From: a virus
Virus record (IMG/VR): IMGVR_UViG_3300025449_000055
Span: 1-23,614 of that record
Length of the DNA stretch: 23,614 bases
Reading direction: 5' to 3' (one strand)
Shown: positions 3,852-21,523 of the stretch, in pieces
Layout: each line of letters begins with the position of its first letter
How positions within the stretch are numbered: position 1 is the stretch's first letter
Notes under the pieces: model-generated
Told to the model about the DNA's origin: nothing
The model's database searches: none
Seen by the model: only the letters and a program-made list of their open reading frames with translations
Made by a program: the position numbers and the translations under genes

Positions 3852-4149
3852 CACAGATATTTCACACCGTTATTCAACGGCAAAAGTATGTTTTCCTTGT
3901 GCTGATAGCAATAGCAAACGAACTGGAGGAGGAAAAGCAATTGCTCAAGTATTTGCAGCAGTTAAAAAAGGCATCCTTCCACCTGTAAAAAGTTTAACTT
4001 GCGTTGATTGTGGTAAACCTGCAAGAGTTTATGAGCATCGAGATTACAACAAACCTTTAGAAGTTGAACCAGTTTGTAATGGTTGCAACATAAAAAGAGG
4101 GCCAGCAATCTACGTTAACCACTTGTCAACTAACAATTTTTCAGTTTAA
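3817..4149 (+). CDS. Zinc-ribbon protein with a treble-clef-like second half
   Basis: A 110-aa protein with two Cys clusters. The first is C8-x2-C11 with C25-x2-C28. The second is C62-x2-C65, then YEHRDYNKPLEVEPVC with C87-x2-C90 and a basic NIKRGPA. The second half resembles the metal-binding frame of HNH-type or transcription-related phage proteins ('HRDY..PL.V.PVC..CN..RG'), but a full catalytic HNH is not evident. AAGGAAAAG precedes the ATG. It overlaps the end of the first regulator by 35 nt in another frame. It may bind nucleic acid; substrate unknown. Confidence 0.7.
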   Translation: MLKKPHLCRVCNTDISHRYSTAKVCFPCADSNSKRTGGGKAIAQVFAAVKKGILPPVKSLTCVDCGKPARVYEHRDYNKPLEVEPVCNGCNIKRGPAIYVNHLSTNNFSV

Positions 4150-4485: not shown

Positions 4486-5203
4486 AGACATAGCTTTTCG
4501 CAGGTTGCTAGATCATTATTATCTGCATGAAGCACCAATAAAACAAAGAACAATTGCTAGACAAATTCGTATGAAAGATTACGAACAGGAAGTGCTATCT
4601 GTTTTAGATGAATTCTTTCGAGATACACCAGATGGATATATTCATCCAAGAGCAGATGAGGAAATTAAGAAATTTAGGGAACATCAAGGTATTTCTTCTT
4701 TTGGAAGTTTTATCAGAGATAACCCAAATTTGAAACATTTAGTAAACAAATCTAGGTATATTCATTACTTTAATGAGGGTAAATTAGAGGAATATTTAGA
4801 CACTTTAAGGTCACATGATGGGTACATGATGGGTACATCAAGGGTACTTGATGCAACCAATAACCAAGAACCAATAACCAATAACCATATATATATGGAT
4901 TTTGAAAAAGTTCTGAAAGCCAAAAACAAACCCTTAACTCAAACCTTGCTTAACTCTATTCAAAAAGAAGCAGATAAGGCAAAGATCAGTTTAGAAGATG
5001 CCATTAAGGAGTGTTGTTCAAGAGGTTGGACAACATTTAAAGCTGAATGGATTGCTAACAAAGCTGACATTGTTCATCAAACAGTTCCATCAAGCTCAGA
5101 ACGTGATCCTGTTCTTGTTAAGCTAGAAGAAGATGCTTTGAAGGCAGTATCAATGCCTGATGATGTTAAGGCTAAATTTAAGATGTTAAAGGGGGGCAAA
5201 TGA
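4421..5203 (+). CDS. DUF1376-type phage replication initiator
   Basis: A 260-aa protein. Residues 1-90 match the DUF1376/YdaU-type winged-helix domain found at the N-terminus of phage replication proteins: MHYYNFHIGDYQSHTHHLT, EDIAFRRLLDHYYLHEAPI, then an ADEEIKKFREHQ helix. The middle (about 130-160) is a low-complexity linker, whose DNA carries the tandem repeats described separately. The C-terminal part has KISLEDAIKECCSRGWTTFK AEWI, a DnaT/replisome-organiser-like helix set. It probably binds the phage origin and recruits host helicase. The start is supported by family conservation and AAGG four bases upstream. The stop overlaps the methyltransferase ATG. Confidence 0.85.
   Translation: MHYYNFHIGDYQSHTHHLTVIEDIAFRRLLDHYYLHEAPIKQRTIARQIRMKDYEQEVLSVLDEFFRDTPDGYIHPRADEEIKKFREHQGISSFGSFIRDNPNLKHLVNKSRYIHYFNEGKLEEYLDTLRSHDGYMMGTSRVLDATNNQEPITNNHIYMDFEKVLKAKNKPLTQTLLNSIQKEADKAKISLEDAIKECCSRGWTTFKAEWIANKADIVHQTVPSSSERDPVLVKLEEDALKAVSMPDDVKAKFKMLKGGK
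4816..4848 (+). repeat. Three 11-bp tandem repeats inside the replication gene
   Basis: TGATGGGTACA occurs twice in direct succession (4816-4826, 4827-4837), followed by a degenerate third copy TCAAGGGTACT (4838-4848). Eleven is not a multiple of three, so each copy is read in a different frame and gives different amino acids. The repetition is therefore at DNA level. I regard these as candidate iterons for the initiator encoded by the same gene. Confidence 0.7.
4855..4889 (+). repeat. Five 7-bp tandem repeats followed by an AT run
   Basis: The units are AACCAAT, AACCAAG, AACCAAT, AACCAAT and AACCATA, directly adjacent. An alternating (AT) run follows immediately. Seven is also out of phase with codons, so the peptide (TNNQEPITNNH) is only partly repetitive. 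Together with the 11-bp array six bases upstream, this gives the lambda-like plan of repeats inside the initiator gene next to an easily melted region. Confidence 0.75.
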
Positions 5204-5931
5204 ATGAGTTGGCTTTATTCGCAGGCGCTGGTGGAGGAATACTTGGGGGACATTTGCTTGGATGGCGAACAGTCTGTGCCGTTGAATGGGAACCCTACCC
5301 AGCAAGCGTATTGTGCGCCAGACAAAATGACGGACTTCTCCCGCCTTTCCCGATTTGGGATGACGTACAAACCTTTGATGGGAAACCTTGGAGAGGAATT
5401 GTTGACGTTATATCGGGAGGATTTCCTTGCCAGGACATTAGTTCAGCAGGAAAAGGCGCAGGAATTGACGGAGAACGATCAGGAATGTGGGGAGAAATGG
5501 CAAGGATCATTCGTGAAGTACGACCCAAATACGTCTTTGTGGAGAACTCACCAATGCTCACTTCTAGGGGACTTGGACGAGTTCTCGGAGACTTGGCCTC
5601 AATGGGGTTTGATGCGAAATGGGGAGTGTTGGGAGCAAAAGACGTTGGGGGAGTTCATCAGCGAAACAGAATTTGGATTGTCGCTTCCCACAATAGTCAA
5701 GTCAGATTCAAACGCAACATCAAAAAACCGTTATTTAAATTCAAGCCATTTCCGTGGGGCAAAGATGTCAGAGGGATTGAGGACTTGCGAAACAGATCCG
5801 ACCTCAGTCCATCCGTCATTTGGAGAAAAGACTATGGGCTGGCCGACTATGTGGACAGGGTTAGCGCCATTGGAAATGGACAAGTTCCTAGAGTGGCAGC
5901 AACAGCATGGAATATCCTAAGTGAAGATTGA
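5200..5931 (+). CDS. dcm: Short DNA (cytosine-5) methyltransferase
   Basis: A 243-aa protein with ordered C5-methyltransferase motifs: motif I ALFAGAGGGILGG (SAM binding), motif IV SGGFPCQDIS with the catalytic Cys at about 77, motif VI VFVENSP (about 113-118), motif VIII HQRNRIWIVAS (153-163), and motif X AIGNGQVPRVAATAW (223-237). It transfers methyl to C5 of cytosine, probably shielding phage DNA from host restriction. It is shorter than usual (typically 300-400 aa): only about 60 residues separate motifs VIII and X, so the target-recognition region is minimal and a standard motif IX is hard to see. It starts at an ATGA overlap. A long second frame is open through the gene. Confidence 0.92.
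   Translation: MNELALFAGAGGGILGGHLLGWRTVCAVEWEPYPASVLCARQNDGLLPPFPIWDDVQTFDGKPWRGIVDVISGGFPCQDISSAGKGAGIDGERSGMWGEMARIIREVRPKYVFVENSPMLTSRGLGRVLGDLASMGFDAKWGVLGAKDVGGVHQRNRIWIVASHNSQVRFKRNIKKPLFKFKPFPWGKDVRGIEDLRNRSDLSPSVIWRKDYGLADYVDRVSAIGNGQVPRVAATAWNILSED
5204..5920 (+). CDS. Overprinted protein in a second frame of the methyltransferase gene
   Basis: A 238-aa reading frame, +1 to the methyltransferase frame, that begins 4 nt after the methyltransferase start and ends 11 nt before its stop. It starts MSWLYSQALVEEYLGDICLD and ends with MGWPTMWTGLAPLEMDKFLE followed by WQQQHGIS. From memory, both ends match phage proteins listed as hypothetical beside cytosine methyltransferases ('GWPxGWTxLxPLETDKFxxW'). 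AAAGGGGGG is spaced 7 nt from this ATG, better than the 3 nt to the methyltransferase ATG, and the stop abuts the next gene's GTG (TAAGTG). It may be a real overlapping gene or a frame kept open by the constraint on the methyltransferase. Confidence 0.45.
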   Translation: MSWLYSQALVEEYLGDICLDGEQSVPLNGNPTQQAYCAPDKMTDFSRLSRFGMTYKPLMGNLGEELLTLYREDFLARTLVQQEKAQELTENDQECGEKWQGSFVKYDPNTSLWRTHQCSLLGDLDEFSETWPQWGLMRNGECWEQKTLGEFISETEFGLSLPTIVKSDSNATSKNRYLNSSHFRGAKMSEGLRTCETDPTSVHPSFGEKTMGWPTMWTGLAPLEMDKFLEWQQQHGIS

Positions 5932-16086: not shown

Positions 16087-16270
16087 TCACAGTAACCTGC
16101 ATATAGCCTTTGGGCTGGCTAGGTAAGGATGGAGTTGTTGATGTTGCACTAAAGTTCAATAAATTGATGAAAAACTGCTGCCAAGGTCTTGTAGGCCTCT
16201 TAGAAGCAGTATCCAAAAACTCACTTTGTGGGTAAGGATTGTTCTGTGGTGAACCATAAATACTAGGCAT
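16046..16270 (-). CDS. Small virion-operon protein, unknown function
   Basis: A 74-aa protein beginning MPSIYGSPQNNPYPQSEFLD, with RPTRPWQQFFINLLNF in the middle and GYMQVTVNGKQYKVPYYDLP at the end. The C-terminal beta pair is conserved in similar short proteins after gp10-like genes. It starts at a TAATG junction with the gp10-like gene and overlaps the cupin by 41 nt. In P22 the gp26 needle gene lies at this place, but this protein is far too short and not a coiled coil, so it is not a needle. Confidence 0.68.
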   Translation of the reverse strand: MPSIYGSPQNNPYPQSEFLDTASKRPTRPWQQFFINLLNFSATSTTPSLPSQPKGYMQVTVNGKQYKVPYYDLP

Positions 16271-18477
16271 TAGTTCTCCCCTACGCTAGATTTAAGATTG
16301 CTTGACACAATCGTAGCAAATACTGGATCACTCACCACGACCTCAAAAACCCTATCCCTTGACCATCCTAATCGCCTCCAGATGGCGCGATTCTTATATT
16401 TTCCTTGCTTACCAATGGATACCCAATGCTCATTTGACCATGTAGAGCCACCATCAGATGACCACCTCAGCATAGCTTGTGGGTTAACACCAGCAGTTGA
16501 GCTTGTAGAAACACCAGTTGTACCTGCTACAGCTAGTCCAGCAATGGCAATTCCTGCAACAGCAGTTGTTGAAGAACTTGATGTTGTTGGTGCTAAACCT
16601 ACTGCTGGCTGAAACTGAATCTGTAATTCATCAAAATACTGCCTTTGAAGGTCAGTCACCAAATGTGGTGCTCGTCTGAGCCTTCTGACTTCTTGACCAT
16701 TGTCTGTGTAATTGTTAGGGTCTAGCTTGTAAATGTTGCCATTTTGCCAATCACCAACGTACACATAGCCACCAAAAGTAGCAGAACAGTTACCACGATG
16801 CCTATGGTAGTTGTTGTAGTTATCAGTCCATAGCCATTTGTGCCACATGGTCGTGCTAATGTCGTAAACCCATGTTAAGTCTAGGCTAGGAAAGGAAATC
16901 ACATAGCACTCATGGCCTTCTAGCTGATAAGTCCATGCAATAGCATCGTCAATCTTTTGGTTAACAAGGGTATTCTCAACTGCATGGGTACTGATCCTAG
17001 TAGGAACGTAGCCATTCATCATCACGATTTGGCCTTGGCCTCGTTGGTTTCTTGAGAGGTAAGCAAAGGAGTTGCCAACACGAGAAATGCTGAACTTGGC
17101 AATGATGCCATGCTGAGTAGAGGTTCCCGGTATCCTTTGCAAAGGAAAAGGAAACGACCCCACATCCACCCACACCTCAGAACTTACCTCACCTAACAAA
17201 TACAGCTCACGATGGTCAACCACAAGAGAAACCAATTGGTCAGGAGCACCATCTTTGCTAGAGAAAGACAAAGGATTTGTTAAGGTCTGCAACAAGTTAG
17301 AAGTTGCGAATTGCTGAGTATTTGGCCTGTTATAGACAAAATAATTGTCCACCACATCAACCACATCAGCACCTGTAAACGCACCATCATTGCTTGGCAG
17401 AATGGTAAAGTTGTTAGCAGTAAAAGATTGAGAGTTACCTAAAGGACTGTAATTAGCAGTTCCTGTTTCACCTGTGCCTGAACCAGTAGCTGACAACACA
17501 GGAGCAGATGTGTAAAACGACCCATTATTGGTCATTGTGTAATCGTTGTTTAACCCAAAGACTAGGTTAATCGTAGCTCCTGTACCTTTACCACCCACAA
17601 AAGTAACTGGTGAAGTTGGAGCAGACTGATACACACCATTGACCACGACCTGATAAGTCGCAATAGCACCTGTAGAAACAGTTAAAACCTTGATTTGAGC
17701 TGCAGTAGTATACGCACCACCAAACGCAGTTAAAACGTCTCCTACGCTGTATCCTGAGCCTCCAGTAGCCAATGTTGAGGATACAACTGTAATTGAGTTC
17801 CAAGTCACAGTAGCAGTCGTGCCATAAGCAGGGCTTGCAATTGTCACAGATGGAGGGCTAGTAAAGCCACTACCTGCATTGGTCAATGTAATCCCTGTAA
17901 CAGTTCCATTGGTTACGGAATTGTTAAGAGTGTAGATTCCTAGACCATTTGAGGTATTAGGAACTGCAGTAATGATGGTGTTAGCAGGAACTCCAGTCCC
18001 TGTGATGGCTTGGCCTACATAAAGTGAGCCTGATGCAATGCCTGTGACATTGATCTGGTTGCCAGAAATAATGCCATTAAAGGTTGCTGTTTGAGTAGTG
18101 GAAATATACCAAGAGTAGCGATTAGAGCCATCAGTAATCATTACCTGAAGGCCATTGTCAGCTATGCCTACCCTGCCAGTTGTGGTAAGGAGTTGCCCTA
18201 TTTGGGTTGAGTTGCCACTTTGGTCAATGTAGTAAACATAAGAGCCAGCAACTGCAACCATGTACTTGCCACCAGAGAGGGTACGCAAGCCTCTAACTTC
18301 TGCATTGGCTAGAGTGGCGAAAGGTGTAAGACCCGGAGTTGGATAGAGGGCCACCACACCCCTTTGACCTGCCTGTTTTAATGGGTCAATTTCAGGACGA
18401 AAGTTTATACACTCACTATCATCTTGATAAATTGAGGCTGCTGTATAACTAGGCCCAACAAAACCCATTTCAGGCAT
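16270..18477 (-). CDS. Tail accessory factor, P22 gp10-like, with a large inserted region
   Basis: The start at 18477 (MPEMGFVGPSYTAASIYQDD) is favoured by GGGG seven bases upstream, giving 735 aa. The N-terminal domain has CINFRPEI and ALYPTPGLTPFATL, and the conserved core resumes at TGADVVDVVDNYFVYN and VSLVVDHRELYLLGEVSSEV, RIPGTSTQHGIIAKFS, GHECYVISFPSLDLTWVYD. These are gp10-type beta-propeller features. About 210 residues (roughly 131-343) are inserted: an ISGNQINVTGIASG domain and several GSGF/YTSxP-like repeats. gp10 sits below gp4 and plugs the tail to keep DNA inside. The C-terminus carries an extra Ser/Thr/Ala-rich stretch. Confidence 0.87.
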   Translation of the reverse strand: MPEMGFVGPSYTAASIYQDDSECINFRPEIDPLKQAGQRGVVALYPTPGLTPFATLANAEVRGLRTLSGGKYMVAVAGSYVYYIDQSGNSTQIGQLLTTTGRVGIADNGLQVMITDGSNRYSWYISTTQTATFNGIISGNQINVTGIASGSLYVGQAITGTGVPANTIITAVPNTSNGLGIYTLNNSVTNGTVTGITLTNAGSGFTSPPSVTIASPAYGTTATVTWNSITVVSSTLATGGSGYSVGDVLTAFGGAYTTAAQIKVLTVSTGAIATYQVVVNGVYQSAPTSPVTFVGGKGTGATINLVFGLNNDYTMTNNGSFYTSAPVLSATGSGTGETGTANYSPLGNSQSFTANNFTILPSNDGAFTGADVVDVVDNYFVYNRPNTQQFATSNLLQTLTNPLSFSSKDGAPDQLVSLVVDHRELYLLGEVSSEVWVDVGSFPFPLQRIPGTSTQHGIIAKFSISRVGNSFAYLSRNQRGQGQIVMMNGYVPTRISTHAVENTLVNQKIDDAIAWTYQLEGHECYVISFPSLDLTWVYDISTTMWHKWLWTDNYNNYHRHRGNCSATFGGYVYVGDWQNGNIYKLDPNNYTDNGQEVRRLRRAPHLVTDLQRQYFDELQIQFQPAVGLAPTTSSSSTTAVAGIAIAGLAVAGTTGVSTSSTAGVNPQAMLRWSSDGGSTWSNEHWVSIGKQGKYKNRAIWRRLGWSRDRVFEVVVSDPVFATIVSSNLKSSVGEN

Positions 18478-18478
18478 T

Positions 18479-20011
18479 TTATAGCCCCACTTTCGCAATA
18501 ATGTCTTGTACTGCCTGAATCAAATAAGGCATAACAAAACTATTATCAACACCTTGATAAACTGGATTACCATGCTCATCCACAGCATTGGGTTGCCCAT
18601 GAACTGCATTTGGAACTTCTGCTTGTAGCTCATCAGCAATAAAGCCAACGTCTTCAATCCCATTTGACTCCCACACAAAACTGCGAGGAAGTAAAGCCTT
18701 GATCTTGGCAATGCCTACACCTGCTGCCAAGTTTGTGATGTTATTCTTTAGCCTTCTGTCAGAAGAAGTTGCATAAGTCGTTGTAGTGCCATTTGTTGCA
18801 ATATAGCCTACAGTTGAATAACTAGAAGGAGTGCCATAACCAAAGTAAGCTAGGTTAGTTCCTGAGTTATTAACAATTGCACCCAAAGCAGTACCACTTG
18901 AGCTAGAGTTGTAAGCACCTACTGCAGTACCACCAGAGGTAGAAGTTGTACCATATACAGTTACTTGGGTTGACCAAGAGTTAACTGTGCCAAATACTGC
19001 ATTACCTGAAACATACATTGAACCCCAAGGGTAAGATGATGATCCAAGGCTAATAGAGGAACTAGAAGGCACAAAACCAGAGCTATACATGGCAACTGCA
19101 CCAGAGCTATTGGCAAGGCCTACAGTCGTTGCACTAGCAGATATGCCATAAGCACTACCCCAAGGGAAAGTGGTAGATGCTCCAATATTGACACCATTAA
19201 AGGCAGCAGCATTGGTTGAGGTATTTCCTGCAGCTACAACTGCTTGCAATGTAGGAGTAGAACCACCAGAAGGTGTAGCCCATTGACCATCATTTCTCAA
19301 GAAAGTCGTAGTGCCACCAGTAGGAGCTGGAATTGAATAAGAATTCCAATAAAAGCTACCTGCAACTGCCAATCCTGACCAACGATAACCTGAAGTTCCT
19401 AAAGCAATTGAGTTATCAGCAGCAGGAACAAAGGTATTGTTGTTAAGGATAACTGTGTTAGTTGAGCCACCATAGTTGTTCTGAATGCCAACTGCTGAGC
19501 CATTACCTGAAATACCTTGTAGGCTAGAACCAATGGCAACACCAATGTAAACACCATTGATATTTGCACCAACAGTAGCATTGTTGCCAGCAGTTAAGAC
19601 TTGTTGCAAAGTAGGAGTTGTGCCTCCAGTACCATTAGAAGCTGCTGTAATGCGTCCATAAGCATCAACTGTGATGTTTGCAGACGTATAACTCCCTGCC
19701 GTAACTGCTGTTGTGGCTAGCCCAATCGTACCAGAAGAAGTAATTGGCCCACCAGTTAATTGACCTGATGCAGTACCAACTGAAGTCACAGTACCAATCC
19801 CTGAACCACTAGGAGTAGCCCATGTGCCATCATTCCTCAAAAACGTAGTTGTCGAGCCTGTTGGAGCTGCAATTGCGTAATTGTTCCAAGTGAAATTGGT
19901 TGTGGTCAATGAGGCATTAGGGAAAACACCTGTGTAAACAGCAGTATTAACGTCATTCAGCCATGATGACCTGATTACTGTTACACCATCTGTGAAAGTT
20001 GTACTAGCCAT
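18479..20011 (-). CDS. Tail fibre with C-terminal S74 self-cleaving chaperone
   Basis: A 510-aa fibre. The N-terminal region has VIRSSWLNDVNTAVYTGVF. The shaft repeats APTGSTTTFLRNDGTWATPS (again as APTGGTTTFLRNDGQWATPS) and TPTLQQVLTAGN / TPTLQAVVAAGN. From residue 416, SSDRRLKNNITNL starts a peptidase S74 chaperone with catalytic Ser417 and Lys422, five apart as in endosialidase fibres, followed by GFIADELQAEVPNAV and FVMPYLIQAVQ. The domain trimerises the fibre and then cuts itself off. GAGAGG six bases before the ATG lies inside the end of the HNH gene. Probable receptor binding. Confidence 0.88.
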   Translation of the reverse strand: MASTTFTDGVTVIRSSWLNDVNTAVYTGVFPNASLTTTNFTWNNYAIAAPTGSTTTFLRNDGTWATPSGSGIGTVTSVGTASGQLTGGPITSSGTIGLATTAVTAGSYTSANITVDAYGRITAASNGTGGTTPTLQQVLTAGNNATVGANINGVYIGVAIGSSLQGISGNGSAVGIQNNYGGSTNTVILNNNTFVPAADNSIALGTSGYRWSGLAVAGSFYWNSYSIPAPTGGTTTFLRNDGQWATPSGGSTPTLQAVVAAGNTSTNAAAFNGVNIGASTTFPWGSAYGISASATTVGLANSSGAVAMYSSGFVPSSSSISLGSSSYPWGSMYVSGNAVFGTVNSWSTQVTVYGTTSTSGGTAVGAYNSSSSGTALGAIVNNSGTNLAYFGYGTPSSYSTVGYIATNGTTTTYATSSDRRLKNNITNLAAGVGIAKIKALLPRSFVWESNGIEDVGFIADELQAEVPNAVHGQPNAVDEHGNPVYQGVDNSFVMPYLIQAVQDIIAKVGL

Positions 20012-20513
20012 TTAAAGCCTCTCTATTTCTTGCTAACAATGTTTTCATAGTTGACAACTTCTTTCCAAATCTATTTGCTAGCTGGCTAGCAGTTAAACCA
20101 AATTCTTTTTTTAACCTCAAAATTTCAGCTTGTTCTTCATGCGTAAAAACTGCTCGATGATGATCTGGGCCTTTTCCAAAAAGATACCTTCCTTTGCTTA
20201 ATCTGTCTTGCATATTTTCCTTTTGATCGGAAACTTTCAAATGCTTAGGATTACAACAAACTGGGTTATCACAAGAGTGCATCAAAAATCCTGCTTCTCT
20301 TTTGTCTATTGGAGCACTTAAGGTTATTGTATTTGGATTAGCTAAATCAAATATAACTCGATGAGCATAATAAGATTTATTTCCAATCTGAACCCTACCA
20401 TAACCTCCACCACCCAAATAGCCTTTCCAAGGCCAACAATCATCATCTCCTTTCTTATCTACTAAACTCCACAATCTTTCTGGTGTATTCCTTGGTCTTC
20501 CTGCTTCTCTCAT
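20004..20513 (-). CDS. Free-standing HNH endonuclease
   Basis: A 169-aa protein of the HNH type often found as homing endonucleases. Motifs are DDDCWPWKGYLGGGGYGRV, then AHRVIFDLA (His51), then LMHSCDNPVCCNPKHL with His79, Asn83 and His91 and Cys81/86/87, then DQKENMQDRLSKGR. A C-terminal helix-turn-helix (FGLTASQLANRFGKKLSTMK) probably helps DNA binding. It stands between the gp4-like and fibre genes, with no homology to virion genes, so it is likely a mobile insertion. A hairpin and -10 box at its start are described separately. It overlaps the fibre start by 8 nt. Confidence 0.88.
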   Translation of the reverse strand: MREAGRPRNTPERLWSLVDKKGDDDCWPWKGYLGGGGYGRVQIGNKSYYAHRVIFDLANPNTITLSAPIDKREAGFLMHSCDNPVCCNPKHLKVSDQKENMQDRLSKGRYLFGKGPDHHRAVFTHEEQAEILRLKKEFGLTASQLANRFGKKLSTMKTLLARNREALNG

Positions 20514-20538
20514 AATAGCTCCTTGTTAAAGCTATTAT
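20512..20538 (-). promoter_or_regulatory. Hairpin that would sequester the HNH ribosome binding site
   Basis: On the minus strand a perfect 9-bp inverted repeat (ATAATAGCT at 20538-20530, AGCTATTAT at 20520-20512) flanks a 9-nt loop TTAACAAGG. The ribosome site AAGGAG is half in the loop and half in the 3' arm, and the A and U of the start codon are paired. A read-through transcript from upstream would hide this start. The stem is AT-rich, so its stability is moderate. Confidence 0.6.
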
Positions 20539-20542
20539 TATA
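20537..20542 (-). promoter_or_regulatory. Perfect -10 box for the HNH gene
   Basis: TATAAT on the minus strand overlaps the 5' arm of the hairpin. A transcript started about seven bases on (near 20530) would lack the 5' arm, leaving the ribosome site open. A good -35 is not present (TTTATA at 15-bp spacing is the best), so the promoter may need a phage factor or be weak. Confidence 0.4.
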
Positions 20543-20554
20543 CAACCTTTAAGG

Positions 20555-21523
20555 CTATATAAAGCCCCCATGAAGGATGAACCCAGCATCCCTTGTCTTT
20601 GTAGATGTCAGCACATTGTCATAACGAGCTAACTGGACAGGCCTCATGTTAGTACGCTTGATGGTGCTCTTGCCCTGTGCTGCATATTGCTGAATCATGG
20701 CTATTTGCGTTGGACTAGCCTTGCCATACATAGGCATTAAACGCTCTGCTAAACACCATCTGAGGGCCATTGAATAACCTTCTGGCAGGGCTATTGGGTC
20801 GTACATGGTTGTGCTTCTGGTGAATATGTTGTCACAGAAAACGTGCATCTCACCTTGCGCAGGATTAGGCCATAAATACAAGTTACCTAAAACCTCAGTA
20901 GGTTGATAGTACAAGGCTTTAGGCCAAGGGCCATTCAAAGTCTTTAAACCAATCATTTCGTATTCTTCAATATTGAGAACAGAAACTGGGTAATCTAAGC
21001 CACCACCTGTGATGGCAACTCCATTGGAAGTAGTGTTAACCCTGACAAAAGCAGAATTGATGGTCAAAGGACGTTTGTAATAGCCTGTGATCGTAGTAGA
21101 TGCTATTGTTTGACTAATGTTGACAGAATATGTACCTGCTTCATTAACTTGACCACCAGCACCAGTCGCAAAGCCTGTAATCATTGTTCCTGCAGCTATG
21201 CCTGTACCTGACAACATCATGTTGGTGTTAATGCCACCAGAGTTAATGGATGTGATTGTCAGGACATTACCTGAGATTGAGCCTACAAAATTAGCTTGAA
21301 CTGAACCTGTAGGGCCAATCGTGTATTGAGTAACGTTTTGTACAACAGGGAATATGATTTCAGTCTTGTAAAAGACCATCATGGACTCGTTAGACCATTG
21401 ATCTAACATATCCTGCAACATCTCGTAGGCATCAGTAGCTGCTTCAGGAGTAGGGATTTCTCCAGCCTCTAGTGCTCCAATGTCCTTGAGTGCTCTGCTA
21501 ACTATGTCGATGGGTTGTGCCAT
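20555..21523 (-). CDS. Tail adaptor, P22 gp4-like, with an inserted domain
   Basis: A 322-aa protein. MAQPIDIVSRALKDIGALEA, AYEMLQDMLDQWSNESMMVF and later ALPEGYSMALRWCLAERLMP are typical of the P22 gp4 tail accessory family. gp4 forms the ring that joins portal to tail after DNA packaging. About 74 residues (roughly 76-149) interrupt the usual 'YTIGPxG...RP' site: GSISGNVLTITSINSGG, MLSGTGIAAGTMITGF, AGTYSVNISQTIASTTITG. The same kind of domain is in the gp10-like protein. The C-terminus is basic and disordered-like. A short gap (5 nt) separates it from the upstream gene. Confidence 0.87.
   Translation of the reverse strand: MAQPIDIVSRALKDIGALEAGEIPTPEAATDAYEMLQDMLDQWSNESMMVFYKTEIIFPVVQNVTQYTIGPTGSVQANFVGSISGNVLTITSINSGGINTNMMLSGTGIAAGTMITGFATGAGGQVNEAGTYSVNISQTIASTTITGYYKRPLTINSAFVRVNTTSNGVAITGGGLDYPVSVLNIEEYEMIGLKTLNGPWPKALYYQPTEVLGNLYLWPNPAQGEMHVFCDNIFTRSTTMYDPIALPEGYSMALRWCLAERLMPMYGKASPTQIAMIQQYAAQGKSTIKRTNMRPVQLARYDNVLTSTKTRDAGFILHGGFI

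Follow-up and report, generated by a model that had tools for sequence, protein, structure and literature searches.

A start-site hairpin and a predicted sigma70-type promoter travel with a free-standing phage HNH endonuclease gene, probably as an expression switch

Comparison of 44 related leaders suggests that the short leader of a free-standing HNH endonuclease gene, found in the late operon of P22-like phages, works as an expression switch and moves along with the gene, a reading to which we assign a probability of about two in three on the strength of sequence comparison. On a long message arriving from the upstream adaptor gene, the folded leader would pair the GGAG and part of the AUG, and the endonuclease would hardly be translated; this repression is deduced from predicted folding together with compensatory change. 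A sigma70-type promoter with its −10 box at the margin of the 5′ arm would produce a short message starting about 15–24 nt before the AUG, which would lack most of that arm and be free for translation.

The window, by which we mean the whole stretch analysed, is a 23.6-kb virus record. Its virion genes form a minus-strand cluster running from 23.5 kb down, in the order S74 fibre, two DUF7936 genes, adaptor, HNH, S74 fibre and Hc3. The genes nearest the leader are as follows.

20555–21523, minus strand: SU10-type adaptor gene of the late structural cluster, adjoining the HNH gene upstream in 44 of 44 leaders
20004–20513, minus strand: free-standing HNH endonuclease gene of 169 amino acids (PHROG_6254), with a zinc-binding His-Me finger core and a C-terminal helix-turn-helix-like region
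18479–20011, minus strand: downstream tail-fibre gene with an S74 chaperone domain, its start overlapping the HNH stop region
16270–18498, minus strand: gene for the head-closure protein Hc3, in the virion cluster

The HNH protein matched PHROG_6254 (E 2e-22) and Pfam zf-His_Me_endon, and its core is intact, nine aligned family members all sharing the H, C and N residues. Towards its C-terminal end (149–185), the family profile resembled the 'CAP repeat' of PDB 8vd6 (E 9e-9), and this segment is possibly a DNA-binding unit common to other phage nucleases and repressors. The nearest complete GenBank genome carrying this HNH gene is that of Podoviridae sp. ctn9Y15, whose portal, coat and stabilization proteins are of the P22 type. 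A phage-encoded T7-type RNA polymerase had no match in ctn9Y15 and 21 related IMG/VR records, with Dickeya phage Katbat as a positive control, and host RNA polymerase therefore likely transcribes these phages. No tyrosine integrase was matched among 15 related records.

Two further features of the window were observed. The adaptor (20555–21523, minus strand) and the head-closure protein (16270–18498, minus strand) both match the same stretch of phrog_21413, at about residues 396–473, as if one module had been inserted in two different virion proteins. In addition, the plus-strand open reading frames at 5200–5931 and 5204–5920 occupy nearly the same stretch in different frames, and both match phage DNA methyltransferase families (phrog_363, E 7e-61; phrog_1008, E 5e-16), making this a candidate dual-coding stretch.

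The leader of the window contains the following elements.

20514–20554, minus strand: intergenic leader of 41 nt, missing along with the gene at the empty sites of relatives
20540–20560, minus strand: second predicted hairpin, just upstream, spanning the adaptor stop codon
20537–20542, minus strand: TATAAT, a −10-like box that shares 2 nt with the 5′ arm
20529–20531, minus strand: predicted transcription start, about 7 nt past the −10 box
20528–20538, minus strand: 5′ arm of the start-site hairpin, from the predicted fold; across the family, own arms pair better than swapped arms
20512–20522, minus strand: 3′ arm of the start-site hairpin, holding GGAG (20522–20519) and the AU of the AUG (20513, 20512)

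It had been proposed that a perfect 9-bp inverted repeat buries the ribosome site and part of the AUG while a TATAAT overlaps its 5′ arm, and we confirmed this arrangement on the minus strand, with ATAATAGCT at 20538–20530 as the 5′ arm and AGCTATTAT at 20520–20512 as the 3′ arm. The predicted RNA helix extends to 11 pairs, including two U-G pairs (20538–20528 with 20522–20512, loop 20527–20523), and has an energy of −10.5 kcal/mol (z = −4.7), with none of 200 shuffles equally stable. When more of the flanking sequence is folded, opening the start costs only a moderate 7.4 kcal/mol (reached by 11% of upstream shuffles), and perfect 9-bp repeats with loops of 3–15 are not enriched, with two in the window against 0–3 per shuffle in ten shuffles. 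Because such repeats are equally common in shuffled DNA and 11% of shuffles reach this opening cost, the repeat taken alone proves little; its significance comes from its position and its conservation in relatives. No gene start in the window other than that of HNH has both a hairpin and a −10 box. A terminator reading of the hairpin was rejected, as no U tract follows the stem.

To compare the leader across relatives, related loci were gathered using the adaptor and several HNH proteins as queries, and the 65 leaders obtained were reduced to 45 groups below 85% identity, of which one was dropped for a wrong start (n = 44). All 44 belong to a single family at a single insertion site, after the tail-adaptor gene, and they therefore share descent; the adaptor is the upstream gene in every case, with 35–69 nt from its stop codon to the AUG. 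About two thirds of adaptor loci had no HNH match. At the truly empty sites (for example, L018, L024 and L027), a fibre or stabilization gene directly follows the adaptor and the leader is absent, as it is at the empty sites of cta1H496, PBR31 and P26218. Even among adaptors 95–97% identical to that of the window, the HNH gene is present in L013 and L015 and absent in L018. Since empty sites have no leader, the leader arrives together with the HNH gene. At locus L085, an apparent GIY-YIG-like gene (recognized by eye from YIYQHRALDTNNIFYVGKGKDKRHFDTN) occupies the same site from about position 3970 onward, with no obvious hairpin of this kind; the site downstream of the adaptor is a possible hot spot common to different endonuclease genes.

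The start region of the HNH gene is costly to open throughout the family, with a mean of 11.2 kcal/mol in the 44 leaders compared to 5.8 kcal/mol for 206 other starts on the same contigs (p = 5e-16), 4.8 kcal/mol for AT-rich control starts and 5.3 kcal/mol for the leaders after shuffling of their upstream part. At most 5% of upstream shuffles reached the opening cost in 33 of 45 leaders. Runs of at least nine pairs were formed by 64% of leaders with their own 5′ arm, 11% with arms swapped between leaders and 7% of control starts; as exchanging the 5′ arms destroys pairing, composition cannot explain the advantage of own arms. Between near neighbours, whose pairs are not fully independent, pairing was kept in 19 of 24 double changes compared to 12 of 32 with slid partners. 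The letters of the hairpin change between relatives while the hairpin is kept, and positions −6 to −1 each show four to six pair types. Predicted folds and compensatory changes thus both indicate pairing of the ribosome-binding site and start codon in messages derived from upstream. RNAalifold run on a plain MAFFT alignment returned no consensus structure, probably owing to differing loop lengths, and was replaced by per-leader folding and by the arm-swap and slid-partner tests. Poor folding was seen for L118, L144 and L208 and, in full context, for L126.

The promoter word is similarly constrained. The best −10 score averaged 5.7 in leaders compared to 2.8 in controls (p = 4e-19), the boxes lie mostly at −37 to −25, and the T, A, A and T of the box are nearly invariant in an unguided MAFFT alignment. 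In most leaders the first base of the −10 box is 13–19 nt from where the 5′ arm ends on its inner side (Spearman 0.60), and with this near-constant distance a start seven bases on would remove most of the arm. The predicted start falls about two bases before the loop, with half or more of the pairs lost in 39 of 44 leaders; in the window, about 7 nt after TATAAT leads to the neighbourhood of 20530, where the original prediction had placed the start. A hairpin together with a −10 box was found in 84% of leaders and about 3–4% of other gene starts, the control starts and criteria having been picked after part of the data had been seen; nine control starts qualified, three of which were mislabelled HNH starts, giving a corrected count of 6 of 203.

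A −35 box scoring 4 or more was present in 15 of 23 leaders with a gap of at least 50 nt but in only 1 of the 21 leaders whose gap is smaller (p = 3e-5), and these boxes read TTGACA or nearly so, almost all at 17 bp. Leaders are accordingly of two types, those with a long gap mostly having a full −35/−10 pair and those with a short gap a −10 box only. The promoter is not of the gp55-dependent T4 late type (TATAAATA); it has a TATAAT-type −10 box and, in relatives, a TTGACA −35 box. Among all sigma70-like sites in their genomes, the leader promoter ranks third and sixth in two relatives of 34–36 kb and 243rd in ctn9Y15. Only three sites in the window have −10 scores as high as that of its TATAAT, which is a good −10 box without a good −35 box at 16–18 bp; with the −35 counted, it ranks 445th of 1,327 sigma70-like sites. 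A promoter transcript without the 5′ arm would fit the −10 geometry and −35 boxes of the family, the −35 of the window being weak. Judged from these motifs, the case for a promoter is strong across the family as a whole and moderate in the window.

Two more scans, made as a fresh hold-out, yielded hardly any further close members apart from ctn9Y15, in which the hairpin and −10 box are present. Among distant HNH genes (bits < 150) the arrangement was present in 0 of 13. In the isolates CB1, BUCT566, Footloose and TM1 the HNH start overlaps the upstream gene or lies within 1–2 bases of it, and the Katbat HNH gene has a longer leader in which the arrangement was not found. A distant HNH gene at locus L413 (Campylobacter phage A112a) has a TATAAT at −35 and pairing of CTCACTTT with AAGGAG over the Shine–Dalgarno sequence, possibly a separate instance of the same switch logic; the taxonomy line of this record reads Hanrivervirus and its stated host is Campylobacter.

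These observations also bear on other explanations. The hairpin could act as a plain damper that insulates the gene from late read-through, with unimportant or weak −10 boxes and with translation that is leaky or coupled to the adaptor. A good −35 box is indeed missing from the window and from 20 of 21 short leaders, and the several distant phage HNH genes that overlap or abut their upstream gene suggest coupling. However, the position and quality of the −10 box are constrained in short and long leaders alike, TTGACA recurs at 17 bp wherever room allows, and 35 to 69 nt from stop codon to AUG is ill-suited to coupling, so we consider this explanation unlikely.

Alternatively, the inverted repeat, which overlaps the −10 box, could be a DNA operator at which the endonuclease represses the promoter through its own DNA-binding domain, in the way that I-TevI acts on its late promoter (PMC2988022); the helix-turn-helix-like C-terminal region of the family, with its CAP-repeat match, would be suited to this. 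Against it, 115 of 502 pairs (23%) are G-U, which favours an RNA structure over a DNA palindrome, the letters of the arms vary greatly among relatives, and in most cases the 3′ arm is fixed to the Shine–Dalgarno sequence and AUG, a placement for which an operator has no need. We regard an operator in place of the RNA switch as quite improbable, although operator action could occur on top of it. That AT-rich intergenic DNA merely yielded a functionless weak hairpin and a −10-like word, a reading in keeping with the unremarkable number of bare 9-bp repeats in the window, is the least credible explanation, the comparison making it unlikely for the family given 44 leaders with compensatory changes, the swap test and a fixed geometry.

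If the leader is the proposed switch, its place in a late operon suggests when it would operate. With less certainty, the hairpin would mainly silence the HNH gene on abundant late messages, and the short message would supply the endonuclease either early or constantly at a low level. Because the neighbours of the gene are late genes and its promoter resembles a host promoter, the timing suggested is long messages late and short ones early or constant. The boldest version of the proposal, in which host-sigma70 I-TevI logic evolved independently with reversed timing and occurs lineage-wide in the homing HNH genes of P22-like phages, its letters recoded and its geometry kept, is one that we advance tentatively and at somewhat less than even odds. 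In the literature examined, a device combining a hairpin and an internal promoter at an endonuclease gene has been described from T4-like phages only. If our reading is true, mobile endonuclease genes repeatedly need muting on the long messages of their hosts and can enter a new site together with their entire control unit. The approximately 44 leaders are a natural set of variants on the balance between hairpin strength and promoter position.

Among known systems, lambdoid morons are inserted genes with their own sigma70 promoter between late genes, and in this they resemble the HNH gene; they differ in that an RNA hairpin acting against read-through translation is not among their defining features. 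Much the same layout is seen at I-TevI in the T4 td intron (also I-TevII and I-TevIII), where a hairpin in read-through mRNA hides the start signals and a promoter borders on the 5′ arm (PMC2988022, PMC3014915). The promoter word at that border is AT-rich, and the geometry and opening cost are very similar too, the cost being 13.6 for I-TevI, 12.4 for Aeh1 mobE and 3.4 for T4 mobE in the same calculation; T4 mobE is reported to overlap nrdA and to be probably coupled to it. I-TevI differs in being an intron-encoded GIY-YIG enzyme with a T4 late promoter, long messages being made early and short ones late, and the endonuclease-specific promoters of T4 are middle or late, none being early (PMC2988022). 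Of the I-TevI-like switch originally predicted, the architecture is well supported by the family comparison, whereas the I-TevI timing is probably wrong here, given a late operon and a promoter resembling the sigma70 type. The leaders of T4 segB and gene e likewise have a hairpin over the start and a late promoter in or beside the 5′ arm (PMC2988022, PMC3014915), but they serve a GIY-YIG endonuclease or lysozyme under T4 late transcription.

The nearest precedent by gene type is mobE of Aeromonas phage Aeh1, which, as far as Gibb and Edgell's work is described in PMC2988022, is a free-standing HNH gene with a hairpin-hidden ribosome-binding site and a promoter arrangement called similar; it differs in belonging to a T4-like phage, with a late promoter, a position inside nrdA and a different HNH family (phrog_655). 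The HNH family of the window had no significant BLAST match to MobE (best E 0.3, to Aeh1 MobE) and falls in a different PHROG. The earlier suggestion that the same logic arose convergently at an unrelated HNH gene is thus plausible, and convergence with the T4 switch is likely, but its novelty is reduced by Aeh1 mobE. The switch logic itself is already known from segB and I-TevI and, at a free-standing HNH gene, from Aeh1 mobE; what differs here is the unrelated HNH family, the sigma70-type promoter, the P22-like phage and the place inside a late operon.
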